Below, piece after piece: positions 4,641 through 24,408 of a stretch of DNA of 64,000 nt. Every line of letters starts with the position of its first letter. Position 1 is the stretch's first letter. A program made the position numbers and the translations under genes. Under the pieces are notes generated by a model, which was given only the letters and a program-made list of their open reading frames with translations, was not told the origin of the DNA and searched no databases. Location of the stretch: positions 1 to 64,000 of the forward strand of contig CALXDM010000002.1 in assembly GCA_944387065.1 (NCBI GenBank), written 5' to 3'. This DNA comes from an uncultured Oscillospiraceae bacterium. GTDB taxonomy: Bacteria; Bacillota; Clostridia; Oscillospirales; Oscillospiraceae.

Positions 4641-4787
4641 GGTAGTCTATAGTAATTGCCATACCTTGAATGGATCGCTTGTCAGTCACCCTATTCTACC
4701 ACGAGATGAAGGTTACTGTGGAGTCTCTCTCTGGGTGTTAATCTTGATTTTACAATCAACCAAATATACTTTATAACAGTTCTTTTC
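4641..4787. other. Spacer between two cassettes, no gene seen
   Basis: Between the end of rhs homology (about 4640) and the next immunity gene lie about 150 AT-rich bases. No convincing frame, terminator or insertion-sequence end was found. The stretch may be the 3' flank of a previously inserted cassette. Confidence 0.5.
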
Positions 4788-5228
4788 TTAAATCTTCTCA
4801 ATAACACTCATATCGATTTTGTGTTGTTTTATCACATCCAATGCTTTTTCGCTTACAATCAGTTGTTTGTATTCGTTATAATAGAAATCATACTTCAAAC
4901 TATTTAAATTTTTTTCATATGAATTCTCACAAATCATTTCCACAAAATTAGGAAATTTTACATCTCCATAAAGCTCATAAAATTCTTCAGATACTGTCAA
5001 TAGCATCTTCCTGAATTTCACTCCTGTTAATTTTTGCTTTAGGATATCATTTCTCAAGCTTTCTGTTACAATTAAACATGGGTGTGTGCGTAATAGCTCG
5101 TCCCCTTGCCATCCATACATCTTATATTCTAAAAATAAAACTTCCTTAATTCGTCCATTTTCATATCTTAATCTGCTCTTATCGCCCAGTTGCCCTGCTA
5201 CTTCAGGTTGTATTAAATAATAATCCAT
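4788..5228 (-). CDS. Probable immunity protein for the HNH-like tip
   Basis: The 146-residue protein is rich in Tyr, Lys and Glu and AT-rich in sequence, unlike the GC-rich rhs DNA around it. It starts with ATG (MDYYLIQPEVAGQL) 12 bases after the stop of the toxin at 5241 and has an AAAAGGAGAACAGT site upstream. I do not recognise its family. Its place directly after a toxin tip on the same strand, its size and its cytoplasmic nature (no signal peptide or membrane segment) fit an antidote. It is inferred to bind the HNH-like tip. Confidence 0.65.
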   Translation of the reverse strand: MDYYLIQPEVAGQLGDKSRLRYENGRIKEVLFLEYKMYGWQGDELLRTHPCLIVTESLRNDILKQKLTGVKFRKMLLTVSEEFYELYGDVKFPNFVEMICENSYEKNLNSLKYDFYYNEYKQLIVSEKALDVIKQHKIDMSVIEKI

Positions 5229-5240
5229 ACTGTTCTCCTT

Positions 5241-6485: not shown

Positions 6486-6724
6486 CCATATAAACGAACT
6501 ATGCTAGGATACAATTTAACCGCCGCTTCACTCAAAAAAGATACTCCATTATCTATAATAAAATTTTCTAAAAATTGCTTTAATTCTTCGCGATATTCCG
6601 ATGATGTAGTAAAATTGATGCTTCCAAAGAACAAAAAATCTTTATAATACTTATTATCATGTGGCAATCGATTCGCAATATATTTCATAAGATTTTTCGC
6701 ATCTACTAAATTTTCAAATTCCAT
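6476..6724 (-). CDS. Probable immunity protein for the ART-like tip
   Basis: I place the start at the ATG at 6724 (MEFENLVDAK, 82 residues) because GGAGGATAT lies just upstream. An in-frame ATG at 6766 overlaps the toxin stop as ATGA and would add 14 residues. The protein is small, mostly helical and without membrane segments. I do not recognise the family. Its position immediately after the toxin at 6763 gives the immunity call. Its 3' end adjoins rhs scraps of the next cassette. Confidence 0.6.
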   Translation of the reverse strand: MEFENLVDAKNLMKYIANRLPHDNKYYKDFLFFGSINFTTSSEYREELKQFLENFIIDNGVSFLSEAAVKLYPSIVRLYGWL

Positions 6725-6762
6725 ATATCCTCCGATATCTATTGACTTTTTGCAATATGTTG

Positions 6763-7740
6763 TCATCTAATAACACTAAATGCATCTAATTTGACTCCAA
6801 AAGCCGGAGTTACAACTTCGATGCCACCACCACGATTTCCGTTTAGTCCTGGGGCTGGTCTTGTAATAAATTCTGTTCCCGGAATCACACTACCCCTTTC
6901 AATAAATTCCATTTTGCTAAAATCAACACCATATCTATCTGGATAGCCTGGAGTAGATGGATGTTCCGCTGCCCAAAATTGTCCTTCAGCCGCTGCAGAA
7001 CGGCCAAGTGTACCTCCACGGTATAGATGGCCTCCATTAACCACATAGTCACGCATCAATAAAGCACTTTCATCAAAGCTCTGTAGCGCATATCCATAAT
7101 TTGTTTTTACATACCCAAATAGTTCATCAACGCCGTACTCATTAGCCCATTCCTGCAAAATGTCGATTTCTCCCTTAGTATGGGCTCCATCATGTAAATT
7201 TAATTCATCAATCAAATCAGAAAGGGCATCAACATCTGTTTTTGTTTTGCCTAATACATCCTTCTCAAACCCGCTCGGATCTACATAGTACACCGGGTTA
7301 TTCGCACAATACGCATACAAGTTCAGCCCATCGCCCCGGTAGGTGTCCTCCTGGGTGAACCTGGCAATGACCGGGTTGTAGAACCGGGCCCGCAGATAAT
7401 ACTGCTGGGTCACCGGATCCAGCTGCTGACCCGTGTACTTGAAGCGGTTGGGGATGGCCTCCTCCTGGGACGTGAGATTCCCCCATGCGTCGTACTCGTA
7501 GCGGTTCTGGACGTTGCCATTTTCGTCGACGATGTGGGTGGTAGACCCCATCTCGTCGGAAGCATAGTGGTAGTACGTCCGGGCCGCATCCGTGTTCCGG
7601 GCAATCAGCGCACTACCCCGGATTAGGCGGATAATCCCCGTGCTGTCCTCCTCAGTGACAGCCTCCCGCTCCTGATTGAAGATGAACCGCACCAGGTTCC
7701 CGTTCTCCTCCATCTCGTACAAATCGTCGGGGCCCACCAC
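6763..7740 (-). CDS. Orphan Rhs tip with ADP-ribosyltransferase-like toxin domain
   Basis: The frame has 325 residues. The shell copy spans 7270 to about 7719; beyond that the DNA switches to a 19-base scrap of another part of rhs. The toxin part (6763-7269, about 168 residues) has GGHLYRGGTLGRS, then EGQFWAAEHPST and GNRGGGIEVV. An Arg on the first strand, a Ser/aromatic motif on the second and a Glu near the end is the R-S-E layout of ADP-ribosyltransferase toxins, which modify target proteins with NAD+. The assignment is by eye and could be wrong. The immunity gene overlaps its stop. Confidence 0.65.
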   Translation of the reverse strand: MVGPDDLYEMEENGNLVRFIFNQEREAVTEEDSTGIIRLIRGSALIARNTDAARTYYHYASDEMGSTTHIVDENGNVQNRYEYDAWGNLTSQEEAIPNRFKYTGQQLDPVTQQYYLRARFYNPVIARFTQEDTYRGDGLNLYAYCANNPVYYVDPSGFEKDVLGKTKTDVDALSDLIDELNLHDGAHTKGEIDILQEWANEYGVDELFGYVKTNYGYALQSFDESALLMRDYVVNGGHLYRGGTLGRSAAAEGQFWAAEHPSTPGYPDRYGVDFSKMEFIERGSVIPGTEFITRPAPGLNGNRGGGIEVVTPAFGVKLDAFSVIR

Positions 7741-7745
7741 CGTTT
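7727..7745 (-). repeat. 19-base rhs scrap at a cassette boundary
   Basis: These bases (starting cgtcggggcccacc) equal a piece of the VgrG-Rhs gene near 13235-13253, a part of the shell far from where the neighbouring tip homology ends. The scrap sits between the shell end of the ART-like tip and the stop of the next immunity gene. It marks the 3' recombination scar of the upstream cassette. Confidence 0.75.
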
Positions 7746-8534
7746 TTATAAATTAGTGATACCCCACACAAAATCTAATGCTGTATGTTCTAGTGTTTGC
7801 ATTTCATAAAATATTTTTTTCTGCATATCCTCATCTCCTTCCTGCATAATTGAAAGCAACTTTATGATAGCATCATAATTTTCTTGCTTTCCAGATGTAG
7901 ATTCCTCATTCATCTTATTCAGTTGCTCAAGCGATCTTCCATATCCTTGCGCTGCCCTTTCTAATAAAGGGACACTTGCTGATAAGTTGCCAAGCCAAAT
8001 CTCATTATATGCCATAGTGAGATAACGCAGTGCATCATTTGTTCCTGGCGAAGAACAATATCTTAATGTTCCATCTCCTCTTTTTTGCTTTGATAGTTCA
8101 ACAAATTTTAGAAAATTAAACTTATCAAAATAATCTATCATACTTTCTTGAACTTGGACAGAAATCGCTTCATTCCAAGCTTTCTCTATTTTTTCAGGAG
8201 AATAATACCTTTTTGATGTTATTTTATCCTCTATTGCTAATTTAGAATAAAAATTATGTGGCTGATTTTTATCATTCGTTTTCCATGGTGCAATTCTATT
8301 ATCAAAATAATAATATTTTGCAAAAGAGCTTGTTGATGCAACTTGCATATGAAACCAGGTTTCCATATATATTACTTCAGGGAAAATGATCTCAACATAA
8401 TGCTCCTTAATTCTTATAAGTGTTTTACGATGCTTTGGAGTTACTTTAAATCCATGTTTTTTACATAAATCTCTAAGCTGTTTAAATAAATAGTGGTTTG
8501 TTTGGGAAGAAGTCCACAATGATTCATGCTCCAT
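7746..8534 (-). CDS. Probable immunity protein for the PD-(D/E)XK-like tip
   Basis: The 262-residue protein has no signal peptide or membrane segment and is AT-rich, with Lys/Tyr-rich composition. An AGGAGG site lies about 12 bases before its ATG, and it begins 17 bases after the stop of the toxin at 8552. I do not recognise the family. A helical stretch near residues 160-200 (LRYLTMAYNEIWLGNL followed by LLERAAQGYG) resembles a TPR-like helix pair. The immunity role is inferred from order. Confidence 0.6.
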   Translation of the reverse strand: MEHESLWTSSQTNHYLFKQLRDLCKKHGFKVTPKHRKTLIRIKEHYVEIIFPEVIYMETWFHMQVASTSSFAKYYYFDNRIAPWKTNDKNQPHNFYSKLAIEDKITSKRYYSPEKIEKAWNEAISVQVQESMIDYFDKFNFLKFVELSKQKRGDGTLRYCSSPGTNDALRYLTMAYNEIWLGNLSASVPLLERAAQGYGRSLEQLNKMNEESTSGKQENYDAIIKLLSIMQEGDEDMQKKIFYEMQTLEHTALDFVWGITNL

Positions 8535-8551
8535 ACTGTAAATATACCTCC

Positions 8552-9550
8552 TTACCTAGTTTGTATTGGAGAAACATTCCCTGGGTTAAATTGCCAGTGA
8601 GTAACTTTTTGACCATTATTTTGATCGCCAAAAACATTACGCTCATTTTTATCCATTTGTTTTTCACCATATGTACTACCTGACTTAGTTTTTCCAGTTT
8701 TAATATCTCCCATATAATAATTATTTTCATTAACCATTGGATTATTGCCTTCAATTTCTTGAATAAGAATGTCTATTCTTGATGAGCCTTTCGACCCATT
8801 TCCTATATCTCTATCTTTGTAGCTTACTTCAGTATAAATTATCAAATTTTTAAAATTTTGATTATTAACCCATTCATCCATTTTTTTAGCAACATCTGCA
8901 TGTACATAAATACCATGAATTCTAGCACTGCTACCACCCGTAGCAGCATCCGATTGATTCACCAATATCTGATACTTTTGCATTGCTCGATGTACTTCTA
9001 AGTCAATCTCAGCACGATTTAATGCATCAGCGTCAGACATTCCCTTGTCTTTATTTCTTTGATAGAATAAATCTCTATTTGCTGCATTAAGAGCCTCTTG
9101 TGGCGATATGCCTTGTTCACGATGCTTTTTGTAGGCATCTTTCACACATTGTGATACATTCCCGCTTGGATCTACATAGTACACCGGGTTATTCGCACAG
9201 TACGCATACAGGTTCAGCCCATCGCCCCGGTAGGGGTCCTCCTGGGTGAACCGGGCAATGACCGGGTTGTAGAACCGGGCCCGCAGATAATACTGCTGGG
9301 TCACCGGATCCAACTGCTGCCCGGTGTACTTGAAGCGGTTGGGGATAGCCTCCTCCTGGGCCGTGAGATTCCCCCATGCGTCATACTCGTAGCGGTTTTG
9401 GACATTCCCCGCTTCGTCGACGATGTGGGTGGTAGACCCCATCTCGTCGGAAGCATAGTGGTAGTACGTCCGGGCCGCATCCGTGTTCCGGGCAATCAGC
9501 TCTGTGCCCCGGATGAGCCAGGCCAGGCCCGTGCCGTCCTCCTCCACCAC
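8552..9550 (-). CDS. Orphan Rhs tip with PD-(D/E)XK-like nuclease toxin domain
   Basis: The frame has 332 residues beginning at a GTG inside shell homology, which extends to about 9571. The toxin part (8552-9160, about 202 residues) contains GSSRIDILI and then MGDIKTGKTKSG. An Asp after a Gly/Ser/Arg turn followed by D-I-K-T-G is the layout of the PD-(D/E)XK restriction-endonuclease fold, so a DNA-cleaving toxin is likely. It lacks the VgrG part and its own start signal, so it is probably a reserve tip. The neighbouring gene at 7746 is the expected antidote. The 90 bases upstream (9572-9662) hold no gene. Confidence 0.7.
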   Translation of the reverse strand: MVEEDGTGLAWLIRGTELIARNTDAARTYYHYASDEMGSTTHIVDEAGNVQNRYEYDAWGNLTAQEEAIPNRFKYTGQQLDPVTQQYYLRARFYNPVIARFTQEDPYRGDGLNLYAYCANNPVYYVDPSGNVSQCVKDAYKKHREQGISPQEALNAANRDLFYQRNKDKGMSDADALNRAEIDLEVHRAMQKYQILVNQSDAATGGSSARIHGIYVHADVAKKMDEWVNNQNFKNLIIYTEVSYKDRDIGNGSKGSSRIDILIQEIEGNNPMVNENNYYMGDIKTGKTKSGSTYGEKQMDKNERNVFGDQNNGQKVTHWQFNPGNVSPIQTR

Positions 9551-9662: not shown

Positions 9663-10760
9663 TCAATTCTGAATTTGCTCCCATTCCTCTCTCCAAACAG
9701 GAATAATTTTGTCATAATCAGTAATTCGAAATCGAGGATCATTTAAATTGAGAACCATATTTTCCCGGTCTCGATATATGGATGGGCTTAAATAAAATGG
9801 GCCATAATGTTTTTCCTCTAATCTGCAAAAGTTGTGTTTTATTGCTAATTCAAAGTCAATATAAAGTTGATCTCCAAAGGGATTATCTGATCCAATAGCA
9901 CTGCTCATATTGATAATTTTTTTTCTGCTATCGTAGAAGTCATCTATAGATAAGTAGATAAACATACGACTGACTTCAGCATACACCCAAATTTGACGGA
10001 CACCCATGGGCCGACCATCCATATTTTCAAGTGATTTTGCCGAATGAAATATGTTCTGAGTATGAATGATTTTCCCTCGATGAATAGTTTCAACATATTT
10101 GATCTTATACTTCGATTCTAACTCTGAGAGAATTTGCACTAAATCAGATACAGAGGTGAAAAATTCAATTTTTAACTTTGACGATTGGTAACACTCCTTA
10201 TTTTTCCCTTTCCGTAAATACCAAGTGTCAATGTCTATGGGAATATGTTTATTCGAGTCATCAAAGCACCATGCAGGAGACAAAAAGTTATAATCACGCT
10301 GAATAAAAAGATATTCATTACGATTAGAGTATACACCTGGGTCAATATAACAATAACCAGATTTAACAAAACATTGCACAAAGAAATGCTTAATATCCTT
10401 GTAAAGTGCTCGCGGTAAAACCTCCTTATTCTCTGGCGATAAAAACAACACGCCTTCACAAAGAACATGGTTATCTTTTAAATATACAGGAGGACCGCTA
10501 AACCTCAGAGAAATAGGAGTATTGCTTTCAATAGAAGTGTCATCAGGTGTATATATCCAGAAACACGGCGTCCCAGAATAGGCTTTCCCAAAATCATGAA
10601 ACTCTCGATAAGAATTTAACGGTTTCCGAAGTGGAATATCAATTTCCGCAATACTTGGGGCCTTTCCAAAGAACGGCTGATAGATAAGAGAATATTTTTG
10701 TTCAATTTCACAAAATAATTCTTTCAACTTATGTGGTAAACAATAAAAGAAAATCTCCAA
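9663..10760 (-). CDS. Probable immunity protein of the VgrG-Rhs effector
   Basis: The 365-residue protein is AT-rich and rich in Tyr, Phe and Ile. It starts with TTG, supported by an AGGTGAT site five bases away, 19 bases after the VgrG-Rhs stop. No signal peptide or membrane span is seen, and I do not recognise its family. It may hold two related halves, since both contain a short Glu-rich helix followed by a beta-rich part, but I could not verify this. As the first gene after the toxin tip at 10780-11499, it is the expected cognate antidote. Confidence 0.65.
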   Translation of the reverse strand: MEIFFYCLPHKLKELFCEIEQKYSLIYQPFFGKAPSIAEIDIPLRKPLNSYREFHDFGKAYSGTPCFWIYTPDDTSIESNTPISLRFSGPPVYLKDNHVLCEGVLFLSPENKEVLPRALYKDIKHFFVQCFVKSGYCYIDPGVYSNRNEYLFIQRDYNFLSPAWCFDDSNKHIPIDIDTWYLRKGKNKECYQSSKLKIEFFTSVSDLVQILSELESKYKIKYVETIHRGKIIHTQNIFHSAKSLENMDGRPMGVRQIWVYAEVSRMFIYLSIDDFYDSRKKIINMSSAIGSDNPFGDQLYIDFELAIKHNFCRLEEKHYGPFYLSPSIYRDRENMVLNLNDPRFRITDYDKIIPVWREEWEQIQN

Positions 10761-10779: not shown

Positions 10780-13700
10780 TTATCGGCAACCATCCCGCGG
10801 ATTTGTATACCCTCTATGGTTCCCTTGCCCTAAAATCAAAAGATCGGAACTTTTCTTGGCTGCAACATAATCAGAGATTTGTTTGGCAGCGTCTTTCCCT
10901 GCCTTTTTCTCCGCCGCCATTTTTTGTAGTCCGTTTAAAATATTCATTTTGCTCTCATCAATTTTATCGCTTCCCCACGAAACTGAAAACGGGTCCGGAA
11001 TATCCACAGTCACCAACTGTTTTGTTGTAGGATCAGTATATGTAAATTTACCACTAACAATTTCATAAGTGACTTTATCAACCAATATAATAGGAGGTTG
11101 TACCAAACTATTCTGCTGCGAAATTTGGCTATTTATGCGTGCAGCATTTTGAAGTTCTCGTGCTAATTCGGTAGATGGACTCATACTAATAGTATTAATA
11201 TTCACTTCAAGTGGCGAACTCATTAAAGTTTTATCACTAATTTGGAATGTAAGATCAGTGTAAGAGCCACCTTTCCGTCCTCCTGTTGAGGAAGGAAAAG
11301 ACCGTTCCTTACCAACATTACCACCGTATGTTTGCCTTATTGATCCAACACCAGGATCCAACGCTTGACCTTCAGCCCCAAAAACGTTTGCAATTAAAAC
11401 ATTGAGCTCCCTAGTTGGAGTAGTTCCATATCGTCCTCCACTCTTTGAAAGATAATCGGGAGTTACATTGGCATATCCAACTGTATTCGTGGATGCAAAC
11501 CCACTGGGATCCACATAGAACACCGGATTATTTGCACAGTATGCATACAGGTTCAGCCCATCGCCCCGGTAGGTATCCTCCTGGGTGAACCGGGCGATCA
11601 CCGGGTTGTAGAACCGGGCCCGCAGGTAATACTGCTGGGTCACCGGGTCAAATTGCTGCCCGGTATACTTGAAGCGGTTGGGGACGGCCTCCTCCTGGAC
11701 CGTGAGGTTCCCCCATGCGTCATACTCGTAGCGGTTTTGGACTGCTCCAGCTTCATCGACGATATGGGTGATAGACCCCATCTCGTCGCTGGCGTAGTGG
11801 TAGTACGTCCGGGCTGCGTCGGTACTCCGGGCAATGAGCTCTGTGCCCCGGATGAGCCGGGTCAGGCCCGTGCCGTCCTCCTCCGTTACTACCTCGCGCT
11901 CCTGGTTGAAGATGAACCGCACCAGGTTGCCGTTCTCCTCCATCTCATACCGCAGCCCCTCTGCATCGTAGCGGTTCACCTGCACATGGCCGTCAAAGGT
12001 CTCCACCCTCACCGTCCGGTTGAAAGCGTCATAGGTGTAACGGGCCCTGTCGTCCGCCAGCAGGTTGCCCCCATTGTCGTACCGGAAGGGGGTGGTCACC
12101 CCGTTCTTGGTGTAGGCCGTCAGCCGGTTCCGGGGGTCGTACTGGTACAGCTCCTCCACACCACGGGCAATGCGCTTGGTGCGGTTGCCCGCCTTGTCGT
12201 AGTACAGTTCCTCAGTGTAGCCGGGGTACTCCACCTTCTTCACCTGGTTCAGCCGGTCGTAGTGGTAAAGGGTCTCGCCCCCCAGCTGCTTCTTCCAGGT
12301 GCGGTTGCCATTGCCATCGTAGAGGTACTGGTTGTCCGCCAGCAGCTCCTCGCCGCTGTGGATGCGGATACCTGTCAGGTTCTTGTCCAGGTCGTAGGCG
12401 TACTCCTGCAGGATGGGGCCGTGAGCCAGCCGCCGAATGGCGCCGTCGGCGTTGTAGTCGTAGGCCGCCACCTCCTGCCCATCGTCCCACACTTTTTCCA
12501 CTAAATCAAGGGAAGAATAGGCGTATTGCGTCACCTTCCCCGTCACGTCGGCCTGCCTGATCTTGTTCCCGTTCTTGTCGTAGGCCAGGGCCAGCAGCGT
12601 CCGCCCGCTGGCACTCTTGCGGATCATACGTCCCATCTCGTCGTACTCGTAGGCGTACCGCATCCCCGCCGAAATGGCGCACTTGAGCAGGCCCTCCCGG
12701 GTGTATTCGTAAAAATCACCCAGAGCGCCGTCTTTCGCTTTTTGGAACAGGGGGGCCCCGTACAGGTTGTACCCAAACTCCACCGTCACCCCGTTGCGGT
12801 CGGTGCGGGCGGCCAAGCGGCCCTCCCCGTCATATTGGTAGGTCTCCTTCTCCCCGGTGGGGTCCACCATGGCCGCAAGCTGCCCGTCCCGGCCGTACTC
12901 GTACCGGGTGGTCCGCCCCTCCCCGTCGGTGGAGCTGGTCAGGTTCCCCGCGCAGTCGTAGGCGTAGAACTCCGTGGAGCCGTCCGCCTTGACAATGCCA
13001 ATGATCCGCCCCCAATCGTCCAGCTGGTAGGTGGTGCGGTTCTGGTTGCCGTCCTCCACCCCCACGATGTTCCCTCGGGCGTCATAGGCCAGCTTCTGGG
13101 TGGCCCCGCCCCTGGTCTGGATCTTCGTGCGGCCGCCCGCCAGGTCGTAGGTATACGCCGCCCCGCCCTGCTGCCCGTCCAGCCGCTGCACCAGTCGCCC
13201 GTCCCCGTCGTAGGTGTTGCTCTCCAGCACCCGCCCGTCGGGGCCCACCACCGTGAGCACACGGCCCCCGTGGTCGTAGGTGTACTGGTAGCCCGCCCCG
13301 TCGTCTGCCTGGGCGTCGTACTGGTTGGGCCGCACCACTTTGGCCAGCTTCCCGTTGCCGTCGTAGAAGCGCCGGGTTACGCCGCCGTCTTTCTCCATAC
13401 GCCGGATCTCCCGGTTGAGCAGGTCGTACTCCACCCGGGTCTTGCGGCCCTGATTGTCCGTGATCTCCACCAGATTCCCGGCCTTGTCGTAGGCAAACTC
13501 CGTCCGGTTGTGGATGCCCGCCCCCTTGTCGATGTGGGTCTCCGCAATCAGCCGGTCCACCCCGTCGTACTCCCGGAGAATTTGGCCGCCCGTGGGCGTC
13601 TGCACCTTCACCACGTTGCCATTCTTGTCATAGCTGTACCGGCTCACCGCAAACCCCCGGCTGCCGTCCGGCCGCTCCACGCTCCGGGCCTGCTCCACCA

Positions 13701-16700
13701 TGCGTCCCGCCAGGTCGTACTTCCAGTGGAACACCTGGTACAGTCCATCCCCAAGCTTCCGCTTCTCCATCGTGCGCTGGTTGCGGCTGTTATAGCCGTA
13801 CTCCACCGCCGCCCCTGTGGTGTCGCTCACCCTCACCAGACGGTCCGCCTGGTCATAGGCGAAGAAAATGCTCAGCACAGGGCCGGCCCCGCTCTCTTCC
13901 CGCTGGAAGTCCCGGTACCGCCGCTCTTCCACCAGGTTCCCCGCTCCGTCGTAGCGGTAGGCGGTCAGACGGTAGAGCACCTCTCCCCCGTCCCCCTGCT
14001 TGACTGGTTCCCGCTTCTCTGTCAGCCAGCCCGTCACGTTGTAGCGGTACAGAATGCCCACCCGTGCCTCGTCGCTCTCCCCCGATTGGTACCCTGCGGC
14101 GTCTATCACCTTGATGATGTTCCCACGCAGGTCGTACACATACCGCTTCTCCACCGTACCGTTGGGCGCGGTGATCTGCACCAGACGGTTGACCTCATCG
14201 TACTCGTAGGTATACCCCGCTCCGTCATCTGCCTGGGCGTCGTAGTCCATGGGCTGCACCTTTTTAACGACGTTGCCTGCCGGGTCGTAGAAGATCCGCT
14301 CCACCCCGCCGTCCGGGTAATGGATGCGGATGCGCCGGTCCTCCCCGTCGTAGTCGTAGACGATCCCCGCCCCGTCCTGCGTCGCCCGGTCATAGGTGTT
14401 GGGATTGATTTCCTTGTGGACGTTGCCGTAGCTGTCCCGCTGGGTGGCATACACGCTGCCCACCGAGTCTACCCTGGCCACCAGCTTGTCCATGGCGTCG
14501 TAGTAGTACCGCGTCCCCATCCCGTCCTCTGCCGCCCCATCGGCTTGGTTGGGCAGCACAAACCGGATCAGGTTGCCCAGTCGGTCGAACTCCCATCGGG
14601 TGCACAACCCCATGGGATCCACCGACTGGCACAGAAAGTCCAAGTTGTTGTAGCTGTACCGCCGCTCCTCCCCGCCGCTGCGCACCGATAGGCAGCGTCC
14701 CGCCGCGTCATAGGTATACGTAATCTCCCGCCCGTCCGGCAGGGTCACGCTGCTGGGGGAGGAACAGCCGCCGGTGTAGCTGTACCGCAGGCTGTTCCTG
14801 TTGGGGTCGGTCAGCTCCACCAGCCGCCCGTGCGTGTCGTAGGCGAACCGGTACACCCCGTACCGCTCCCCCTCCAAACGCACCCGCATCTCCACCCGGT
14901 TGCCCTGCCCGTCGTAGCGATAGAACGTCTCCCGGCCACTGTTGTCCCACTGCCGCAGCAGGTTCCCCTCCCCGTCGTACGCATAGGACGTAATCAACCC
15001 GTTGGGCAGGCGCTCCTCCAGCAACTGACTCTGCCCATCATACACTCGGACCAGCTCCCCGCCCCTCCGGTCCTTCTGCCACACCACGTTCTGGTTGGCG
15101 TCGTACCGCTTCTCCTCTGTGGTACCGTCTGGGTACACCTGCTTCTCCACCAGATTGTCCTTGTTGTAGTGGAACGCAATCTGATCCCCTTTGCCCACCG
15201 TCTGGAACGTGTTGGTCCGGTTTGCATCGTCGTAGAGCACCACGAATTCTTCCCCCGTGGCCAGGAACTGCCGAGTTACACGCCCAGTCAGATCGTATTC
15301 ATTGCGCACATACTCGTGCCCGTTCTGGTCAATGACGCTGGCTAGCCAGCCCTCAGGAGTGTAGGCGTAGTGGATGGCCCCCTCGTCCGCCAGACGGGCC
15401 TCGGTCAGCAGCTCACCGTCGTAGGCATACCGCACCGTCCGGCCCAGAATGTCCGTGATGCCGGCTAGCTTATTGTCCTGATATGTAAACTCCAGCACCT
15501 GCCCGCAGGAAAACTCCATGCGTTGAATGGCACTACCCAAATAGCGAAACCAAATCCGGTTATCATTCCGGTCGATCATCATAGAGAGGTAGCCCCTGCG
15601 GTCATACTGGTAGCGGATTCTTTCCCGCACCAATGCCAGGCAGAACCCAGCGTCCGTCTCCGTCAGACGATATATCCCTGCCCCGGACCTCTCGTTGCTC
15701 CACCCATGTTCCGTCCTGATGAAGTGCTCCAGGTGCATATCCGGCAAAATCGCCACCGCTTTTTCGCCTTCCAGCCAAATCCGCGTCTCGATGTTCAGAA
15801 ACCAGCGGGAGCCCAGCAGTCCGCCCTTGTTTTCGTACCGGGACTCATAGATGCGCACCAGCCGGAAATCTTCCCCAAGCTCCTTGACGATAAAGTCGGT
15901 GTTCGCCATGCGCTGGCTTCCGGTAACCATATCAATGGGGTCGCCACATTTTGGCTTGTTTTCGGAGGACTGGCTATCACCCTCTCCCGGCTCTGCGTTG
16001 CGGACTTTTTGACCGTCGGATTCCGGCCCTTTTCCCGCGTCTGAGTCATGATCGGGCTTTTTATCGGGCCCTTCTGGCTTTTTTGTGCTGCTCTGCCAGG
16101 AATCACGCAAGCGGTGCTTCATATTACTGACTGGCCCAATGTAGTTTTTTATTTGGTTGAAAAAGTCATACGATGCATCCCATTTTTCCTGCCAGGAGGC
16201 GTCGCTGAACGCCACCACTAAGAAGTTCCCCAAAGAAGCAATTGCGTCTTTGGAACCAATGACCAGCTGTGTGCTGTCGATGAAGTCGGAGATTTTTCCA
16301 AACCACTTCAGCGCGGATGCGGCAACTTTTAATTTGCTGGAGCCGCTCACCGCTTTCTGTGCAATCTTCAGCACGGAGCACCCAGGGATGCACCCAATAA
16401 GATTCATGGCAGCACCGGCATAGTCCCCACGCAACAGCGAAATCGTTGCGTTTACTGCTCCAGCCACTATGCCCACCACAGGGCACGCTATCCCAACAAT
16501 CCCTATAATATCCAGACCCAGCTGGATGCCGTCCAGCAGGTTGTCCATGAAAGTGTTCGTGCTCTCTTCCAGCTGCTCATACGTCCGGCCACGGTAGAAA
16601 CCCAGCTCATGGAACACAGGACTTTGCCCATAAATATTGAGGCTGTCGATCATCAGGTAAGAGTCCTGCACCTGTAGCTTACAACAATTCAGGCCAAAGA

Positions 16701-18339
16701 CCAAGATCTGCTTGTCCTCCACCTCAGCGATCTTGATGCTGTTGTCTGTGCCCTCGCTACCACCGCCTCCGGCAGCCTTAAGCCAGGAGCCCACTGTGTC
16801 AAACGGAGACTTTAATTCATCAAATACGCCGGCAGAAATGTCCAATAGCGCATCCAGGCCAGCCGCCGCCAGGGACGGGTCCTCCGGCACACCTCCGTGG
16901 ATCACCTGATAGTTTGCCCCCGCTTTCTCGGCGCTCTGGAACTGGGCCGCCTTAGCCGCCTGCCCGTCCAGAATCGCCTGGCTTTTGCTGGGGCTGTTCG
17001 CATCCTGCTCCACGCCTTGAATGTAAATATTTTCCTCTGCGTAGAACGTCACATCCTTTGTGGCCGCGATCTCGATGCCCTTCTCATCCGACAGGATGAT
17101 TTTCAGCTGCATCCCACCCTCGCCGTCCATCTCTCTCCGGTTCCCCGTGATGTCCAGTTCCGCGCCCTTGAATTTGACCATCCGGTTCGTTGAGGTCAAA
17201 ACCTTTTCCTCCGGATGGCTGAAGTCGCTACGGCTATTGTCCGCGTGTTTGCTGCCCAGGCACACAAAGGTCCCGTCATTCTCAAAGTAACAGAATACCG
17301 TGTCTCCAATGTCCGGCATCACATACATGCAATCGCTGAGGGTGCTGGCATAGGGTATCCACCGCGTGCCGCTACCCGAGTCAAAGCGCACCTTGACCTC
17401 GCAACCCGATACCTCCAGCACCTGTCCGCTGATGATATTGCTGCTGTACAGCCTGGGTGCCGGCCCGCGCGGTTGATCGGTATTTCCCCAGCTCCCCGCA
17501 ATATCCGCCGTGGGCCCCTGCGCCGGCTCCGGCAGCGCGCCGGACCGGCTCACACATTTGATATGATTGCGCAAGACGCCCAATGAGGCCACGATCTCAC
17601 TGTACACGATCATGTACTGTCGTCCATCCTTTTCTAGCCCGTGCCCGACGCCCAGCCCCAGCTCCGCCACAGCTCCCCCATACTGTGCAACCTCAAAGGC
17701 CATCAGCTGCGGGTTGGCCGTCTGCTGCTGGACCCGCAGGGCCTGGATGTCCTTCTCCACGCTCTCGTTGGGCAGCGCATCTACAGGATGGACTGTAAAC
17801 GGGACCGCGCCCACGTTGAGCTGAAACCCAGCCGCTTTCCCATTCACAAACAGGCTCAGCCCAAACTGGTTGGCGATCCGCCTTGCAAACGCCCAGTCCG
17901 TCTCGTTCTGCTGGTATATCATCTGGGACACTACAGGATCCCGCTCTAGCGTCATCAAAACCCCGTAGGGGCTGAGCACCTGCTCCAGAATGCTCTGGAG
18001 CGTCTTGCTCTCGCTCTGGAACGTGAGGCTCTTGGGCGTGATATCTGCCAGATACGATCCCGTGACAGCCTCCACCCGTAGCTCCTGGTACTGCCCAAAC
18101 TGCTCTGCGCTGTACCCAACGCACACCCCGCAAAATACCCACTCCCCATCCAGCGTCCGCACGGTGATGGGAGCCTGCTCCAGGCGGCTCATATCTAGTA
18201 CTGCATCCCCGTCCATCACCAGGTGGAGATGCAACCGGCCATGCTCGTCCTGCCGCTCCGTCACGGTGATGTTTTTTATGGTCCGATAGGGTACCGGCCC
18301 CTGCACGATCAACTGGCCAAGGTCGTATATCTCTCCCAC
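10780..18339 (-). CDS. VgrG-Rhs fusion effector with polymorphic toxin tip
   Basis: This 2519-residue protein starts at a GTG with GGAGGTGAGG upstream. Residues 1 to about 460 are VgrG-like: a gp27-type hub, with NETDWAFARRIANQFGLSLF matching the stand-alone VgrG, then a gp5-like OB fold and beta-helix (KGIEIAATKDVTFYAEENIY). Residues about 600-640 form a hydrophobic segment. From about 800 (DPIDMVTGSQRM) to 2280 it is Rhs shell with dozens of YD repeats, ending RFYNPVIARFTQED and DPSGF. The last 239 residues (10780-11499) are the toxin, whose family I do not recognise; KGGSYTDLTF then LEVNINT could be a divergent restriction-endonuclease fold. Rhs shells encapsulate and self-release toxins. 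Fused to a spike, it should ride on the contractile tube. Alternative: a cell-surface Rhs, but no signal peptide is present. Confidence 0.85.
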   Translation of the reverse strand: MGEIYDLGQLIVQGPVPYRTIKNITVTERQDEHGRLHLHLVMDGDAVLDMSRLEQAPITVRTLDGEWVFCGVCVGYSAEQFGQYQELRVEAVTGSYLADITPKSLTFQSESKTLQSILEQVLSPYGVLMTLERDPVVSQMIYQQNETDWAFARRIANQFGLSLFVNGKAAGFQLNVGAVPFTVHPVDALPNESVEKDIQALRVQQQTANPQLMAFEVAQYGGAVAELGLGVGHGLEKDGRQYMIVYSEIVASLGVLRNHIKCVSRSGALPEPAQGPTADIAGSWGNTDQPRGPAPRLYSSNIISGQVLEVSGCEVKVRFDSGSGTRWIPYASTLSDCMYVMPDIGDTVFCYFENDGTFVCLGSKHADNSRSDFSHPEEKVLTSTNRMVKFKGAELDITGNRREMDGEGGMQLKIILSDEKGIEIAATKDVTFYAEENIYIQGVEQDANSPSKSQAILDGQAAKAAQFQSAEKAGANYQVIHGGVPEDPSLAAAGLDALLDISAGVFDELKSPFDTVGSWLKAAGGGGSEGTDNSIKIAEVEDKQILVFGLNCCKLQVQDSYLMIDSLNIYGQSPVFHELGFYRGRTYEQLEESTNTFMDNLLDGIQLGLDIIGIVGIACPVVGIVAGAVNATISLLRGDYAGAAMNLIGCIPGCSVLKIAQKAVSGSSKLKVAASALKWFGKISDFIDSTQLVIGSKDAIASLGNFLVVAFSDASWQEKWDASYDFFNQIKNYIGPVSNMKHRLRDSWQSSTKKPEGPDKKPDHDSDAGKGPESDGQKVRNAEPGEGDSQSSENKPKCGDPIDMVTGSQRMANTDFIVKELGEDFRLVRIYESRYENKGGLLGSRWFLNIETRIWLEGEKAVAILPDMHLEHFIRTEHGWSNERSGAGIYRLTETDAGFCLALVRERIRYQYDRRGYLSMMIDRNDNRIWFRYLGSAIQRMEFSCGQVLEFTYQDNKLAGITDILGRTVRYAYDGELLTEARLADEGAIHYAYTPEGWLASVIDQNGHEYVRNEYDLTGRVTRQFLATGEEFVVLYDDANRTNTFQTVGKGDQIAFHYNKDNLVEKQVYPDGTTEEKRYDANQNVVWQKDRRGGELVRVYDGQSQLLEERLPNGLITSYAYDGEGNLLRQWDNSGRETFYRYDGQGNRVEMRVRLEGERYGVYRFAYDTHGRLVELTDPNRNSLRYSYTGGCSSPSSVTLPDGREITYTYDAAGRCLSVRSGGEERRYSYNNLDFLCQSVDPMGLCTRWEFDRLGNLIRFVLPNQADGAAEDGMGTRYYYDAMDKLVARVDSVGSVYATQRDSYGNVHKEINPNTYDRATQDGAGIVYDYDGEDRRIRIHYPDGGVERIFYDPAGNVVKKVQPMDYDAQADDGAGYTYEYDEVNRLVQITAPNGTVEKRYVYDLRGNIIKVIDAAGYQSGESDEARVGILYRYNVTGWLTEKREPVKQGDGGEVLYRLTAYRYDGAGNLVEERRYRDFQREESGAGPVLSIFFAYDQADRLVRVSDTTGAAVEYGYNSRNQRTMEKRKLGDGLYQVFHWKYDLAGRMVEQARSVERPDGSRGFAVSRYSYDKNGNVVKVQTPTGGQILREYDGVDRLIAETHIDKGAGIHNRTEFAYDKAGNLVEITDNQGRKTRVEYDLLNREIRRMEKDGGVTRRFYDGNGKLAKVVRPNQYDAQADDGAGYQYTYDHGGRVLTVVGPDGRVLESNTYDGDGRLVQRLDGQQGGAAYTYDLAGGRTKIQTRGGATQKLAYDARGNIVGVEDGNQNRTTYQLDDWGRIIGIVKADGSTEFYAYDCAGNLTSSTDGEGRTTRYEYGRDGQLAAMVDPTGEKETYQYDGEGRLAARTDRNGVTVEFGYNLYGAPLFQKAKDGALGDFYEYTREGLLKCAISAGMRYAYEYDEMGRMIRKSASGRTLLALAYDKNGNKIRQADVTGKVTQYAYSSLDLVEKVWDDGQEVAAYDYNADGAIRRLAHGPILQEYAYDLDKNLTGIRIHSGEELLADNQYLYDGNGNRTWKKQLGGETLYHYDRLNQVKKVEYPGYTEELYYDKAGNRTKRIARGVEELYQYDPRNRLTAYTKNGVTTPFRYDNGGNLLADDRARYTYDAFNRTVRVETFDGHVQVNRYDAEGLRYEMEENGNLVRFIFNQEREVVTEEDGTGLTRLIRGTELIARSTDAARTYYHYASDEMGSITHIVDEAGAVQNRYEYDAWGNLTVQEEAVPNRFKYTGQQFDPVTQQYYLRARFYNPVIARFTQEDTYRGDGLNLYAYCANNPVFYVDPSGFASTNTVGYANVTPDYLSKSGGRYGTTPTRELNVLIANVFGAEGQALDPGVGSIRQTYGGNVGKERSFPSSTGGRKGGSYTDLTFQISDKTLMSSPLEVNINTISMSPSTELARELQNAARINSQISQQNSLVQPPIILVDKVTYEIVSGKFTYTDPTTKQLVTVDIPDPFSVSWGSDKIDESKMNILNGLQKMAAEKKAGKDAAKQISDYVAAKKSSDLLILGQGNHRGYTNPRDGCR

Positions 18340-18345
18340 GGATCC

Positions 18346-19086
18346 TCACCTCCGGTTTTTGAGCTTCGATTTTAGCTTCCGTGCTCCGACTACCGCGCCC
18401 ATAACTATGGCCACTGCCAGCACTAGGCGAAGCCCTTTATCCAGCATCCAGGGGCCTTTCCCATCCCGGTACATGTCCAGCACCAACGTTGGGTCCACGT
18501 CGTAGTCTTTTGCCATCTCGTAGAGCATCTGGTACTCGTCGCCTGTACTTCCCCTCACATAGCCGGTGGGCAGTTCCACTTCCCCGCCCATGATGTTCTG
18601 GAGCATATGGTAATCGTCAAAGAAGGCACAGAGATAGGAGCCGTCCTCCAGTTGGACCAGATAATATGGATTGTAAGAAGCCGCCCCGGAGAAAAATGTA
18701 ATCACTTTTTGGAGCGGGGTAATCGGGTAGTCCAGTTCATAATACTCGGTGATCTCGACGCCGCGCTTCGTTCTGGAAATGTGGTTCCAGCTTCTGTGCA
18801 GGCCCTCCTCGTCGCTATCCCGAAGCCTCATCAAAGGGCATTGGACAAATACCTCGCCCGTAACAGTGGCGGGAATCTGTCCCGAGAAGAATTCCCGGGC
18901 ATCCTCTTTACGTTCAATCGCCCGCACCTCCGAACCGGGCCTTTGCCCCTGCTGGGTGCCGGTTCCAACTCCTAAATCGTACAGCCAGCCAGTGGGAAAA
19001 GCCCCCATGACCATCCAGAAGGAAAACAACACTCCTACTATTACCGTCATCACTGTGCCAACTGTCACTTTCTTCTTTTCTTCCAT
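18346..19086 (-). CDS. Membrane protein with two transmembrane segments, unknown function
   Basis: The 246-residue protein has a hydrophobic helix at residues about 9-29 (VGTVMTVIVGVLFSFWMVMG) and another near 220-238 (GLRLVLAVAIVMGAVVGA), with about 190 residues between that probably lie outside the membrane. The ends are Lys/Arg-rich and likely cytoplasmic. It lies seven bases before the VgrG-Rhs start on the same strand. I do not recognise the family. A role in docking, in effector handling at the membrane, or as an accessory immunity protein is possible, but this is inference from position. Confidence 0.65.
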   Translation of the reverse strand: MEEKKKVTVGTVMTVIVGVLFSFWMVMGAFPTGWLYDLGVGTGTQQGQRPGSEVRAIERKEDAREFFSGQIPATVTGEVFVQCPLMRLRDSDEEGLHRSWNHISRTKRGVEITEYYELDYPITPLQKVITFFSGAASYNPYYLVQLEDGSYLCAFFDDYHMLQNIMGGEVELPTGYVRGSTGDEYQMLYEMAKDYDVDPTLVLDMYRDGKGPWMLDKGLRLVLAVAIVMGAVVGARKLKSKLKNRR

Positions 19087-19481: not shown

Positions 19482-20018
19482 TTATACTAAATCCACTGCC
19501 TGCAACTGAAACCCTGTCGCACTACGTTTTAACATACTCTCCGCAACTGGGAGAGATACCACTGTAATGCGTTCTAATAGACCGGCCACTTGGAATATAT
19601 GCCGTCCCTGCACCGCCTGAAATTGGAGCACCAGGCGTTTAATTGATCTGTCTGGATACCGTTGCGTCCCCACATCCATACAGGAAATGGAGTCAATCAT
19701 GGGGCACCAATACATCGGCGCTACATTGATTCTTGTATCATTTGCAAACACCTGGACGCCCTTGTATTTCATGTGCGGTTCATAAAACTGCCACAACTTC
19801 TTAATTTCACTTTTCACGAGAAGAACTGGCCGGAATAACACATCGCATATCTCCACCTGGGGAGAATACTCAAAGTAAGCCACCTGATGTTTCGGGACAC
19901 TTCCCGGATCAATGGGCTTTCCTGCTGTGTAGTCTCCCTCCACCGCGAAATGGAAAATCCTTATGGGCATACTTAAACTGGCATCTTCTTTCAATTGAAA
20001 ATATTGAAATGAGTTCAC
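19482..20018 (-). CDS. Operon protein, possibly Imm11-like fold
   Basis: The start is the GTG at 20018 (178 residues): AGGAGG lies nine bases upstream, overlapping the stop of the pentapeptide-repeat gene. The longer frame reaching 20234 overlaps that gene and is rejected. The region around residues 55-110 (EICDVLFRPVLLVKSEIKKL, then VFANDTRINVAPMYWCPMID) resembles the Imm11-like domain that accompanies spike and Rhs genes in some Firmicutes. Translational coupling with the pentapeptide protein suggests the two work together, for instance in effector loading. Function not established. Confidence 0.6.
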   Translation of the reverse strand: MNSFQYFQLKEDASLSMPIRIFHFAVEGDYTAGKPIDPGSVPKHQVAYFEYSPQVEICDVLFRPVLLVKSEIKKLWQFYEPHMKYKGVQVFANDTRINVAPMYWCPMIDSISCMDVGTQRYPDRSIKRLVLQFQAVQGRHIFQVAGLLERITVVSLPVAESMLKRSATGFQLQAVDLV

Positions 20019-20022: not shown

Positions 20023-21090
20023 CTACACCTCCTCGGCGGCCTGATCCTGTAAAGAGGCACATAGGTCGCTCTCCAATACATGGAGCTTAATAAATTGGCA
20101 ATTCTCAATTTTTGCATGTCTAAGCTCTGCATTGCAAAAGCTGACCTTCTCCAACAAACAGTTTGTGAATCTGGTGTGTCCTCCGGACAAGAAGTCCCCC
20201 GGTTGCCGGCTTTGTCCAGTTTCTGACCAGACACGCTTGAAGGAAGAATCAGTCAGTCGTGTGGCATAAATTTCAGTCCCCATCAAGCTTAAATCCGAAA
20301 ATGTGCAGTGCTCAAACGTGCAGTCAACGAATTGTGCATCGCTAAGAGAACACGCCAGAAAATCCACATATTGGAAAATGCAGTGTTGAAAAACGGTATC
20401 AGATAGCGTCAAGCCCTCAAATTTCTGATTCCGGAACACTTTGTCCTGAAATTTTGCAAACTGAGCACTGCTGTTGGGCTCTAAGAGCGCCAAATCGACC
20501 TCTTCCCGCTCCCCTATCAGAGCGTATTGGCGTTCCATATACTCGCCAAGCGTAATACAAAAAAGCGGTCCCTTGTTTAAGCTGCGCCACACTGGCAACT
20601 CCGGGATTCGTCGCAGGTGCGACTTCATGGCAATCCAATAGAGGAAGATAATATCGCGTGCTGCCTGAATTGCCTTGGCCTTGATTTCTGGCCTCCTGAT
20701 ATAGCTTCCAAGCTCCATCTCCCCACATGTTTGGATCAGGGCATCTACAAACTCGCTCCAGCGGTAAAACATCCATGGCGCCGGCACTCGTTCTCCTATC
20801 ACCGGGTCATGCATGAACGGTTCTCCTGTATAAGCTTCTATCAAAATTGCCGGAGTCCCTTCCAACAGCGAGGTCCATAGGATCGAGCAAGTGATGACGC
20901 TTAATGGGACATCAGCCAGACGCTGCAGTTTGGACACAGTGTTGAGGAATTGTTCCACATAAGTTACAAATCGAGTCTCATTCTTTTGAAACTCAGCGCC
21001 ATATTGTTCTGTAACTTCCTGTATCCAGGCCCGAAAAAGTGGATCATAGCACTTTTCTATAAACGCCTTTTCCGCCTCTGCCCGCTCCAT
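20023..21090 (-). CDS. Pentapeptide-repeat protein, possible effector-loading adaptor
   Basis: I prefer the ATG at 21090 (355 residues) with AGAGGGTGA upstream over a GTG at 21111. The first 200 residues are helical and unrecognised. From about residue 215 there is a run of degenerate A(D/N)LXX-like pentapeptides (FRNQKFEGLTLSDTVFQHC and onward) forming a right-handed quadrilateral helix to about residue 345. In Proteobacterial T6SS loci pentapeptide-repeat proteins beside vgrG act as adaptors for effectors. Here the gene starts 26 bases after the vgrG stop and leads to the VgrG-Rhs gene, which fits that role by inference. Confidence 0.7.
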   Translation of the reverse strand: MERAEAEKAFIEKCYDPLFRAWIQEVTEQYGAEFQKNETRFVTYVEQFLNTVSKLQRLADVPLSVITCSILWTSLLEGTPAILIEAYTGEPFMHDPVIGERVPAPWMFYRWSEFVDALIQTCGEMELGSYIRRPEIKAKAIQAARDIIFLYWIAMKSHLRRIPELPVWRSLNKGPLFCITLGEYMERQYALIGEREEVDLALLEPNSSAQFAKFQDKVFRNQKFEGLTLSDTVFQHCIFQYVDFLACSLSDAQFVDCTFEHCTFSDLSLMGTEIYATRLTDSSFKRVWSETGQSRQPGDFLSGGHTRFTNCLLEKVSFCNAELRHAKIENCQFIKLHVLESDLCASLQDQAAEEV

Positions 21091-21115
21091 GATTTCACCC
21101 TCTCTGTTCACGATT

Positions 21116-22504
21116 TTATGTCAAAATGATATTTTCGCCTGTCATTGTAATGCCCTCTTTGCGAATGTCCACATAAGCAGATTCCGTGCCGAGAAGAATA
21201 TGGTTTTCCGCCTGTAAATTAATCGTATTGCCCGCCTGAATATTGACATTGCTGGCAGACGTGATGGTAATGTTTTTGTCAGAAATGATTTCGATCCCTT
21301 TTTCATCTGTGAGGCCAATAAACAATTTCCCTTCACGCCCAATGATCATGAGCCCTTCTTCTGTTAGCAGAATTTTCTTTCCATTCGGTCCGCTCCAAAT
21401 TTTATCTGTTACCTTTGCGCCTGGGGTTTTCTGTACCGAACTGCCTACAAAGGCATCTTTTTCGCTTCCTGATGGGAAAAATACGCGTACTTCATCCCCT
21501 ACCGCAGGCATACTATACCAGCCGCTTCCATCTTGAGAGGAATACGCAGTGGAATAGGGAAACCACCAGTCCCCACCCCCATCATAGGATTGGTCAATGG
21601 AATTAAAGAATACCTGCACCTTATCCCGCTCAACAGCCTGAACAATACCTGTCATCATTTTCCCTGATGCTTGGGTGTTGGAAATTGCCGGTGCAACAAA
21701 ACCGGTCTTTCGCCCCACCCCATATTCACAAACCAAGTTCCCATCTTTTAGGGAGGCCTTTACAGTTTTGATATAAAGCATTTTCCCATTTAGGTTTAGT
21801 TGGTCGCCGATATAGGCATAGTCGAAGGATGTGAGCGAATCGTCGGCAAAGTCGTCTGCCATAGCGCCTGTCTGCATTGCAGAGAAAGTATTGTAAGTGG
21901 AGACGCTCTTTTCAGAATGATACTCTACAGTTCTCATTTCCCTTGTTTTGCTAACCGGCGGCGGTCCAACATAGATATATGGTTTTTTGGCTGTAATATT
22001 GGCACAGGCTGGCACGCCAAGCGCGGAAGCCATGCGGATCATAAACTGCCAGTCAGTCTCGTTGCACTGGATGATGAAAGCGCCGGTCGGCTTATCTGTG
22101 GCAGTCACGGTCACAGTGCCCCTACCCCCAACCAATTTACTTAAAAGTTCGCCATACGTCATAGTGGTCCTTTGAAACGTCTTGTTCATAGGTGCTACGT
22201 CCAAAATCACACTGGTCGTTTTTGCCTCTACCGTAACAAGGGCAAAATCATTCTGCTTTTCATGGGATAATTGGGTAATGAGGCCGTAGAACAATTGCCT
22301 TGGCTGTCCTTGTGCAGAAGTCGTAATATCAATGGCGAACGCTTCGTCTACCCTCTGCACAAATTCCAGCGCGTCCTGATATGGGATTAATCCGGTCAAT
22401 TTTACCATGCCATGCTGATTTGGTGCATGGCTGATTTCCAGCTCCCTAAGCTGAGAAAATGGTACGCCAGCAATATTTATGTTTTCGTATGTGATCGTAC
22501 TCAT
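21116..22504 (-). CDS. vgrG: VgrG-like spike protein (gp27/gp5 type)
   Basis: The 462-residue protein carries a gp27-like hub (residues 1 to about 260; CNETDWQFMIRMASALGVPA is the classical 'E.D..F..rl....G' motif), an OB fold (GIVQAVERDKVQVFF to about 360, with PAVGDEVRVFFPSGSEKDAF) and a C-terminal beta-helix of short repeats (KNITITSASNVNIQAGNTIN). It is shorter than typical VgrG (600 or more residues) but complete in layout. VgrG trimers cap the tube and pierce the target. It overlaps the DcrB-like gene as ATGA and is related to the N-terminus of the VgrG-Rhs fusion, so the locus has one spike without and one with cargo. Confidence 0.85.
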   Translation of the reverse strand: MSTITYENINIAGVPFSQLRELEISHAPNQHGMVKLTGLIPYQDALEFVQRVDEAFAIDITTSAQGQPRQLFYGLITQLSHEKQNDFALVTVEAKTTSVILDVAPMNKTFQRTTMTYGELLSKLVGGRGTVTVTATDKPTGAFIIQCNETDWQFMIRMASALGVPACANITAKKPYIYVGPPPVSKTREMRTVEYHSEKSVSTYNTFSAMQTGAMADDFADDSLTSFDYAYIGDQLNLNGKMLYIKTVKASLKDGNLVCEYGVGRKTGFVAPAISNTQASGKMMTGIVQAVERDKVQVFFNSIDQSYDGGGDWWFPYSTAYSSQDGSGWYSMPAVGDEVRVFFPSGSEKDAFVGSSVQKTPGAKVTDKIWSGPNGKKILLTEEGLMIIGREGKLFIGLTDEKGIEIISDKNITITSASNVNIQAGNTINLQAENHILLGTESAYVDIRKEGITMTGENIILT

Positions 22505-23127
22505 TTTTGGGTATCCTCCTTCACCACACGAAAGGATTCCACAATTTCTTCTGCAATGGGCAATAATCTATCTTTATATTTTCGATCAAACATAATGGTG
22601 CCGATCATCAACCGCCCCTCAAGAATCGTATAGAAGATATCAGAGTAGCTGACTCCCTGTAGCGCGTTTGCTAAAACTTCCATAACGCCGATATCTCCCT
22701 CACCTCGTTTTTTTATGTCCGTCTGAATCACACGTGTCTTTGGTCCCATTCGCTCCATCATCTGCTTTGCAAAGGCCAAAAGATCTGGGATATTCCCCTC
22801 CGCTATTGGATGCTCCGTCCAATGGAACGCGAGAATAAATGGGGCGTAGCTATTCCCATATAATTCCTGCGGTGGATTCCCGAACGGAAACAGAATCTTA
22901 ATTTCCTCTTCTGGTCTGGCCTCAAAATCAGTTGGCATATAAATTCGCACTTTACCATGAAGCACCACTTTCTCTTCAAACTTTGTAGGAATTTTGAAAA
23001 TCTCAACAAAGTCATCATAGATGGATTGCTTTTTTTCATGCTCCACTGTTTTGGGGCAATATCGCGACTTGTCCGCATCCTCTGCTCTCTTGCGGGCTTT
23101 CAAAATTTCTTCATCAAAGTGTTCCAT
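22501..23127 (-). CDS. DcrB/DUF1795-like protein, probable EagR-type effector chaperone
   Basis: The 208-residue protein has a charged N-terminal helix and then, from about residue 50, a DcrB/PsbP-like pattern: VVLHGKVRIYMPTDF, a hydrophobic strand, a central helix (IPDLLAFAKQMMERMG), and a final strand-helix ending IVESFRVV. DUF1795-type Eag chaperones bind the hydrophobic segment of Rhs-type T6SS effectors and load them on VgrG. The VgrG-Rhs protein here has such a segment at about 600-640. Fold assignment is by eye; the chaperone role is inference from family and context. It overlaps vgrG by ATGA and the DUF4280 gene by 14 bases. Confidence 0.7.
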   Translation of the reverse strand: MEHFDEEILKARKRAEDADKSRYCPKTVEHEKKQSIYDDFVEIFKIPTKFEEKVVLHGKVRIYMPTDFEARPEEEIKILFPFGNPPQELYGNSYAPFILAFHWTEHPIAEGNIPDLLAFAKQMMERMGPKTRVIQTDIKKRGEGDIGVMEVLANALQGVSYSDIFYTILEGRLMIGTIMFDRKYKDRLLPIAEEIVESFRVVKEDTQK

Positions 23128-24397: not shown

Positions 24398-24408
24398 CGT
24401 AATCCCTC

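Follow-up and report, generated by a model that had tools for sequence, protein, structure and literature searches.

A VgrG spike and an Rhs cage in one chain

The 64,000-nucleotide window analyzed here comes from an uncultured, Gram-positive Oscillospiraceae bacterium of gut type (GenBank assembly GCA_944387065.1, contig CALXDM010000002.1, positions 1 to 64,000) and carries on its minus strand a gene (10780-18339) that joins a VgrG-type spike to an Rhs toxin cage. The gene is one intact open reading frame of 2,519 codons with no internal stops, beginning with a GTG at 18339 and ending with a stop codon at 10780-10782. A good ribosome-binding site, GGAGGTGA, lies directly 5' of the GTG, which itself sits 6 bases past the end of the upstream gene. 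The fusion is the last member of a co-directional gene run that extends from 39691 down to 10780, with gaps mostly shorter than 25 bases and larger ones of 54, 97, 147, 214, 395, and 469 bases.

The chain divides into five parts, all on the minus strand. Residues 1-460 (16960-18339) form the VgrG-type spike, as delimited by profile matches in the PDB and an hhalign alignment to the VgrG of Escherichia coli IAI1. The translation continues into a linker (residues 461-589; 16573-16959) that appears partly beta-rich, a low-confidence model placing strands at residues 535-571. Hydropathy then marks a hydrophobic, pre-toxin-like segment at residues 590-700 (16240-16572), which peaks at residues 611-629 with a mean Kyte-Doolittle value of 2.54; Pfam places a Pre-toxin TG domain at a comparable position in a related fusion described below (genome G718). 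The Rhs cage, bounded by Pfam, NCBIfam, and a motif scan, spans residues 799-2280 (11500-15945), opens with DUF6531 at residues 799-873, contains RHS repeats (Pfam E value, 6e-98), and closes with a DPSG core motif at residues 2277-2280. This motif leaves a variable tip, a putative toxin, of exactly 239 residues (2281-2519; 10783-11499). YD repeats, an Rhs-associated core, a DPxG boundary, and a variable tip, the features of an Rhs polymorphic toxin, are thus all present, as are the VgrG N terminus and variable, putatively toxic C terminus that characterize an evolved VgrG. No PAAR domain was found in the chain by Pfam. The coordinates and the anatomy given in the original prediction, a spike followed by a hydrophobic segment, an Rhs cage, and a 239-residue tip, therefore hold.

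Pfam scores the Phage_GPD domain on residues 35-167 just under its cutoff (27.7 versus 30.1 bits). A profile built from the plain and fused spikes of the family retrieved nearly only hub chains of VgrG and contractile injection systems (CIS) from the PDB (best E value, 7.9e-20), and these matches cover positions 57-445 with a gp27-like hub followed by an OB domain. A three-row profile restricted to the fused lineage, which matches hub domains at positions 14-170, is weaker but points in the same direction: it placed a CIS spike at the top (E value, 1.6e-4), a tail protein of the Mu type second, and then a VgrG-like chain ahead of a phage hub. Our reference for the type VI secretion system (T6SS) was E. 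coli IAI1, as E. coli REL606 has no T6SS at the site examined; hhalign against the IAI1 VgrG gave an E value of 2.8e-7 with the joint profile and one of 5.8e-4 when the fused lineage was used by itself. The fused spike is 28% identical to the other VgrG of the same genome. A DUF2345-like match, corresponding to the beta-helix needle, was obtained by Pfam in this plain VgrG and its relatives and none in the fusion itself. Judged by its sequence, residues 1-460 are a real VgrG spike, and the fold assignment has this basis because structure prediction failed to give a confident model.

The region beyond the 3' end of the fusion holds further Rhs tips. A 365-residue protein of no family (9663-10760, minus strand) is, by its position, the candidate immunity protein for the tip. 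Beyond it, five orphan Rhs tip cassettes and their neighbor genes occupy 1219-9550 on the minus strand. The five cassettes share the cage end at 84 to 96% identity (85 to 95% as DNA), diverge from it at a common point in the DPSG region, where the variable tip begins, and are each followed by a candidate immunity gene. Arrays of this kind are typical of tip swapping at Rhs loci, and this one suggests antibacterial use. Within 1-9550, the neighbors include SUKH, ankyrin, Imm43-like, and unknown proteins. In one cassette, a GH-E nuclease tip precedes an ankyrin protein, a pairing that also occurs on a plasmid of Paenibacillus polymyxa (L057). The array reaches the contig end, with bases 1-77 matching the main Rhs gene exactly, and the 5' part of the cassette at 5241-6485 is a mosaic pieced together from two far-apart stretches of that gene (97% and 84% pieces), likely the scar of an earlier recombination.

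Recurrence of the fusion in other genomes

The same fusion, as the original prediction had proposed to look for, is present in other genomes. In Anaeromassilibacillus sp. An200, the gene order is the same, and the reading frame crosses the junction of spike, linker, and DUF6531 before the contig ends; over 766 residues of spike and linker the two proteins are 71% identical, with conserved spike motifs kept. Full-length VgrG-Rhs fusions lie inside a 5.1-Mb single contig in G718 (2,521 residues) and inside a 3.5-Mb contig in G790 (2,431 residues). Pfam recognizes both ends of these two proteins; the G718 chain scores above the Phage_GPD cutoff, and the G790 chain has a Tox-SHH tip. Further copies, truncated where their contigs stop, lie in G751 and G993, and in G872 the spike and Rhs halves are neighboring separate genes. 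The window opens at a contig end inside Rhs sequence, as might be expected of an assembly artifact or a recent frameshift join, but the junction shared with An200 and the equivalent fusions in the large contigs of G718 and G790 refute an assembly join, which the original prediction had named as grounds for its own rejection, and leave such an origin practically no chance.

A tree computed from 34 spike domains groups the fusions of the window, An200, and G751 in a single clade with full support, separate from the rest. Some branches of this tree are long; its strongly supported ones require the Rhs label to have changed at least twice. Spikes at the same position elsewhere carry nucleases (Endonuclea_NS_2, AHH) in place of Rhs, and most modules pair a plain VgrG with one that is extended at its C terminus by Rhs, a nuclease, choline-binding repeats, or an unknown domain. 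The choline-binding form is seen on the single-contig chromosome of G718 (L094:2704-7011), where a VgrG is fused to about 22 such repeats. The joining of a VgrG spike to Rhs in one chain is thus recurrent across genomes, and the same spike-toxin design recurs in unrelated Bacillota.

The operon, its tube, and its candidate sheath

Upstream in the same run, a 142-residue protein (35179-35607, minus strand) is likely the tail tube, an Hcp-like protein, because Pfam, PDB profile, and fold searches combine to this effect. The window protein itself matches no Pfam or NCBIfam family. Among 23 relatives, however, 13 have a match to Pfam TssD, the best at an E value of 3.2e-5, and three match T4 gp19 weakly. 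The best PDB match of the family profile is Hcp1 of Flavobacterium, whose E value improved from 0.086 to 0.029 and then to 0.0037 as distant relatives were added; in the last and broadest profile, it is the only match. A model was computed from the sequence of the window protein together with those of two relatives on viral contigs; Foldseek, queried with it, returned Hcp1 as its first PDB match (probability, 0.99), and the leading matches are nearly all Hcp proteins, tail tubes, or tube-like baseplate proteins. The likeness to a T6SS Hcp tube thus comes through relatives, the PDB profile, and the fold search. Several contigs from viral collections (L137:7884-9026 and L175-L178) encode a 380-residue protein with a tube-related N-terminal domain and a C-terminal extension, resembling an evolved Hcp effector.

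The tube gene adjoins the gene for a 727-residue protein (35630-37813, minus strand) in all 31 loci examined (28 by automatic count and three by tblastn). This protein is highly conserved, at 50 to 65% identity between families, and from its place and size we infer it to be the sheath. Compact, divergent loci follow the order 727-residue protein, tube, VgrG, 446-residue protein, and 230-residue protein, with at most 18 bases between the first two genes, which is the order of a tail operon. This compact form occurs at L085, L087, and L165-L173, several of which also contain a row of Hsp70/actin-like genes; no DUF4280 protein or effector was recognized within the stretches examined. As for possible known counterparts of the 727-residue protein, hhalign comparisons with TssC, TssB, and one prophage sheath gave nothing, the best being TssB at a P value of 0.018 among 60 comparisons, which we did not use.

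The gene for the 727-residue protein was found in 9 of 391 genomes of the class, 13 of 398 genomes of the phylum (about 3% of the sampled Bacillota), and 29 of 151 genomes of one other order. At the sensitivity used, plasmid, phage, and viral collections yielded no relative. Spike modules without a nearby copy exist, for example, on a P. polymyxa plasmid. On IMG/VR contigs (L104-L108), VgrG or VgrG-effector genes stand beside recombinase-like and prophage-like genes, which suggests prophage insertion next to spike modules.

The remaining genes of the run, all on the minus strand, are described from the fusion upward. A 246-residue protein with two membrane segments (18346-19086) is kept in An200. 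Next comes an Imm11-like accessory protein (19482-20018), recognized by a weak Imm11 match and synteny and with its start assigned by analogy with An200; it is more likely an adaptor than an immunity protein, since nearly all VgrG modules conserve it regardless of their effector. It is followed by a pentapeptide-repeat accessory protein (20023-21111; Pfam) and the plain VgrG of 462 residues (21116-22504), which has weak Pfam and NCBIfam matches and was included in the joint spike profile. Beyond a small protein (22501-23127) considered below lies a DUF4280 protein with a C-terminal extension (23114-24412; Pfam E value, 9.1e-18), whose PAAR-like domain, distinct from canonical PAAR, scores 65.3 bits against a cutoff of 26.3 and marks it as a PAAR-like tip. 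Three conserved proteins of 261 (24409-25194), 230 (27854-28546), and 446 residues (28559-29899) are, by synteny, candidate baseplate parts. Between the first two lies an 872-residue Hsp70/actin-like ATPase (25215-27833), which has no Pfam match and whose translation contains the motifs DFGSSNT and DCGGGTTD. Pfam assigns the genes at 30114-34709 to regulators (a PP2C-like protein with transmembrane and TPR segments, a PP2C, two FHA proteins, and DnaJ) and the gene at 37868-39691, at the head of the run, to a VWA-domain membrane protein. Outside the run, at 53268-58316, the window encodes a 1,682-residue Cna_B/SpaA/FctA surface protein that resembles a pilus or adhesin.

The plain VgrG gene at 21116 and the small gene at 22501 both lie where the original prediction placed them. 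Its further proposal, that the latter encodes an EagR-like chaperone serving the hydrophobic segment of the fusion, is unproven. Synteny places this family just before the plain VgrG. A profile of the small protein aligned at full length, though insignificantly, with DcrB (E value, 0.75; rank 2) and a DUF1795 protein (E value, 0.91; rank 4) in the PDB, an unrelated protein ranking above both, and no member of the family reached Pfam DUF1795; a DcrB/DUF1795 fold is possible. Several VgrG fusions have a strongly hydrophobic stretch and those of G718 lack one, although G718 has two genes of this type, so that the strict correlation sought between gene and stretch was not found. An Eag-like role is possible.

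Candidate machines for the fusion

The fusion is probably an evolved VgrG/Rhs toxin of a tail-like injection system of Bacillota. As a whole, the locus is, with reasonable confidence, best explained by an evolved VgrG that bears its own Rhs-caged toxin and rides on the tube and inferred sheath of its operon. Somewhat more cautiously, we favor the view that 18346-39691 encodes a distinct, tail-derived injection machine of Bacillota, with its own sheath (the 727-residue protein), an Hcp-like tube, a pair of VgrGs, a DUF4280 tip, and Hsp70/actin-like ATPases replacing ClpV; the VgrG-Rhs fusion would be one heavy cargo, and the machine would be the system suspected earlier in this phylum (PMC5349215, PMC8651086).

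In such a machine, the fusion would most likely trimerize with the plain VgrG, leaving a single cage suspended at the spike's side or end. The pairing of a plain with an extended VgrG in most modules suggests a mixed trimer that has one cargo-bearing arm, and mixed spike trimers of this kind are known for some T6SSs. The DUF4280 protein would cap the spike point, the spike trimer would sit on a tube of the 142-residue protein, and contraction of the putative 727-residue sheath would drive tube and spike out of the cell. The Rhs cage may shield the producer until it cleaves itself at DPSG, which would free the tip into a neighboring cell, presumably another bacterium, and the hydrophobic stretch may have a role in membrane crossing.

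Several results weigh against this proposal. The AlphaFold check of the spike suggested in the original prediction, run on residues 1-790 with a four-row alignment, gave a mean predicted local distance difference test score (pLDDT) of 34 and no usable structure of the fusion, so that the spike claim stands at the sequence level and gained nothing from the model. Confidence in the tube model is middling (pLDDT, 57.7; predicted template modeling score, 0.56), VIA-align on the same folds gave Z scores of 4.5 to 5.6, also middling if taken alone, and profile comparison with a seven-row alignment of proteobacterial T6SS Hcp proteins showed no signal; the relation to these is distant, because direct comparison gave nothing. 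Three PDB profiles, and Pfam on 16 members, returned nothing that identifies the 727-residue protein as a sheath. The 446-, 230-, and 261-residue families matched neither TssE, TssF, TssG, or TssK by hhalign nor Pfam, leaving their baseplate identity unsupported. With regard to expression, assembly, and toxicity, the system is known here from genes and predicted models.

The lack of sheath homology by any method used, together with Hsp70-like ATPases and the lack of a ClpV-like gene in the operon, would also suit a noncontracting, sheathless tube-and-spike surface structure in which the 727-residue protein is a scaffold or anchor and the spike still serves for display or export of the fusion. 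The constant succession of this gene and the tube gene in 31 loci, however, matches the sheath-tube order of contractile tails, and the spike gene directly follows the tube in compact loci; we regard the sheathless structure as unlikely, though it is the strongest of the alternatives.

The closest solved spikes are T6SS VgrGs and hubs of extracellular CIS (eCIS), which might suggest that an ordinary T6SS or eCIS, encoded at another place in the genome, fires the fusion. Genome searches covered VipB, Phage_sheath_1, and gp19. VipB/TssC (PF05943) had no match, while the control genome was matched; TssB was not searched in the genome. No TssJ, TssL, TssM, or ClpV was present among the operon genes scanned, the whole genome not having been searched for these. 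The Phage_T4_gp19 search had no match in the genome or in any control and carries no weight. The sole classical sheath genes are two Phage_sheath_1 genes, neither of them in the operon, and both loci contain terminase-, portal-, and tape-measure-like genes and are prophages. With the fusion belonging to its own tube-bearing operon, firing by a machine encoded elsewhere is improbable, and the known T6SS that the original prediction took as its setting is not borne out. Two prophages with contractile-tail genes thus reside in the same small genome (G000:C1:236000-256000, L013; G000:C2:145000-165000, L012). Export of the Rhs chain by Sec or type VII, with the VgrG part as a relic or adhesive stalk, is comparably improbable: Rhs proteins in general can use other exporters, type VII included (PMC8636562), but the translation has no signal-peptide-like start, and the conservation of spike, linker, and spike motifs with An200 runs counter to a relic.

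With an evolved VgrG of a tail-like injection system as the preferred reading, the fusion can be set beside known effectors. VgrG may be fused to toxins in T6SS (PMC3482391), and an evolved, or specialized, VgrG is defined by an N-terminal spike and a C-terminal toxin in one chain (PMC10673891, PMC7861908). The fusion shares this layout, its toxin being putative, but its cargo is a whole Rhs cage with a tip, and its genome has no recognizable T6SS sheath gene. Rhs1 of Photorhabdus, mounted via PAAR and EagR (PMC8636562), is similar in its DPxG-bounded cage, variable tip, spike mounting, and hydrophobic segment before the cage; Rhs1, however, carries the PAAR and binds a separate VgrG and EagR, whereas here VgrG is covalently attached and the PAAR-like protein is separate. 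The spike and tube also resemble those of eCIS (Afp, PVC, AlgoCIS, and Streptomyces CIS), from which the operon differs in having no Phage_sheath_1 gene, no recognized baseplate genes, and an Hsp70-like ATPase.

A further close precedent is a 2021 report of Firmicutes loci with DUF4280 (PAAR_H2) and Phage_GPD in which an unknown phage-like translocation system of Gram-positive bacteria was suspected (PMC8651086), a possibility already raised in 2016 (PMC5349215). Those loci resemble ours in a DUF4280 protein beside a GPD-type VgrG, a DUF2345-like tail, their occurrence in Bacillota, and a lack of T6SS and eCIS marker genes; in the window, likewise, a DUF4280 gene lies beside VgrG with no T6SS or eCIS genes nearby, the comparison extending to DUF4280 and not to subtype H2 itself. 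In the portions consulted, the two papers name no tube, sheath, ATPase, or operon, all four of which are proposed here. Our literature search, whose coverage excluded bioRxiv and most subscription papers, found no VgrG-Rhs fusion and no description of the operon.

The fusion is probably a new variant of evolved VgrG/Rhs effectors, and the operon is probably the missing tail-like injector of Bacillota. A covalent VgrG-Rhs protein represents a second means by which a spike can bear a toxin cage, one that dispenses with the PAAR of T6SS Rhs effectors such as Photorhabdus Rhs1. The operon setting is more interesting than the fusion itself. Its testable tube and its candidate sheath address whether Gram-positive bacteria own a T6SS-like weapon.
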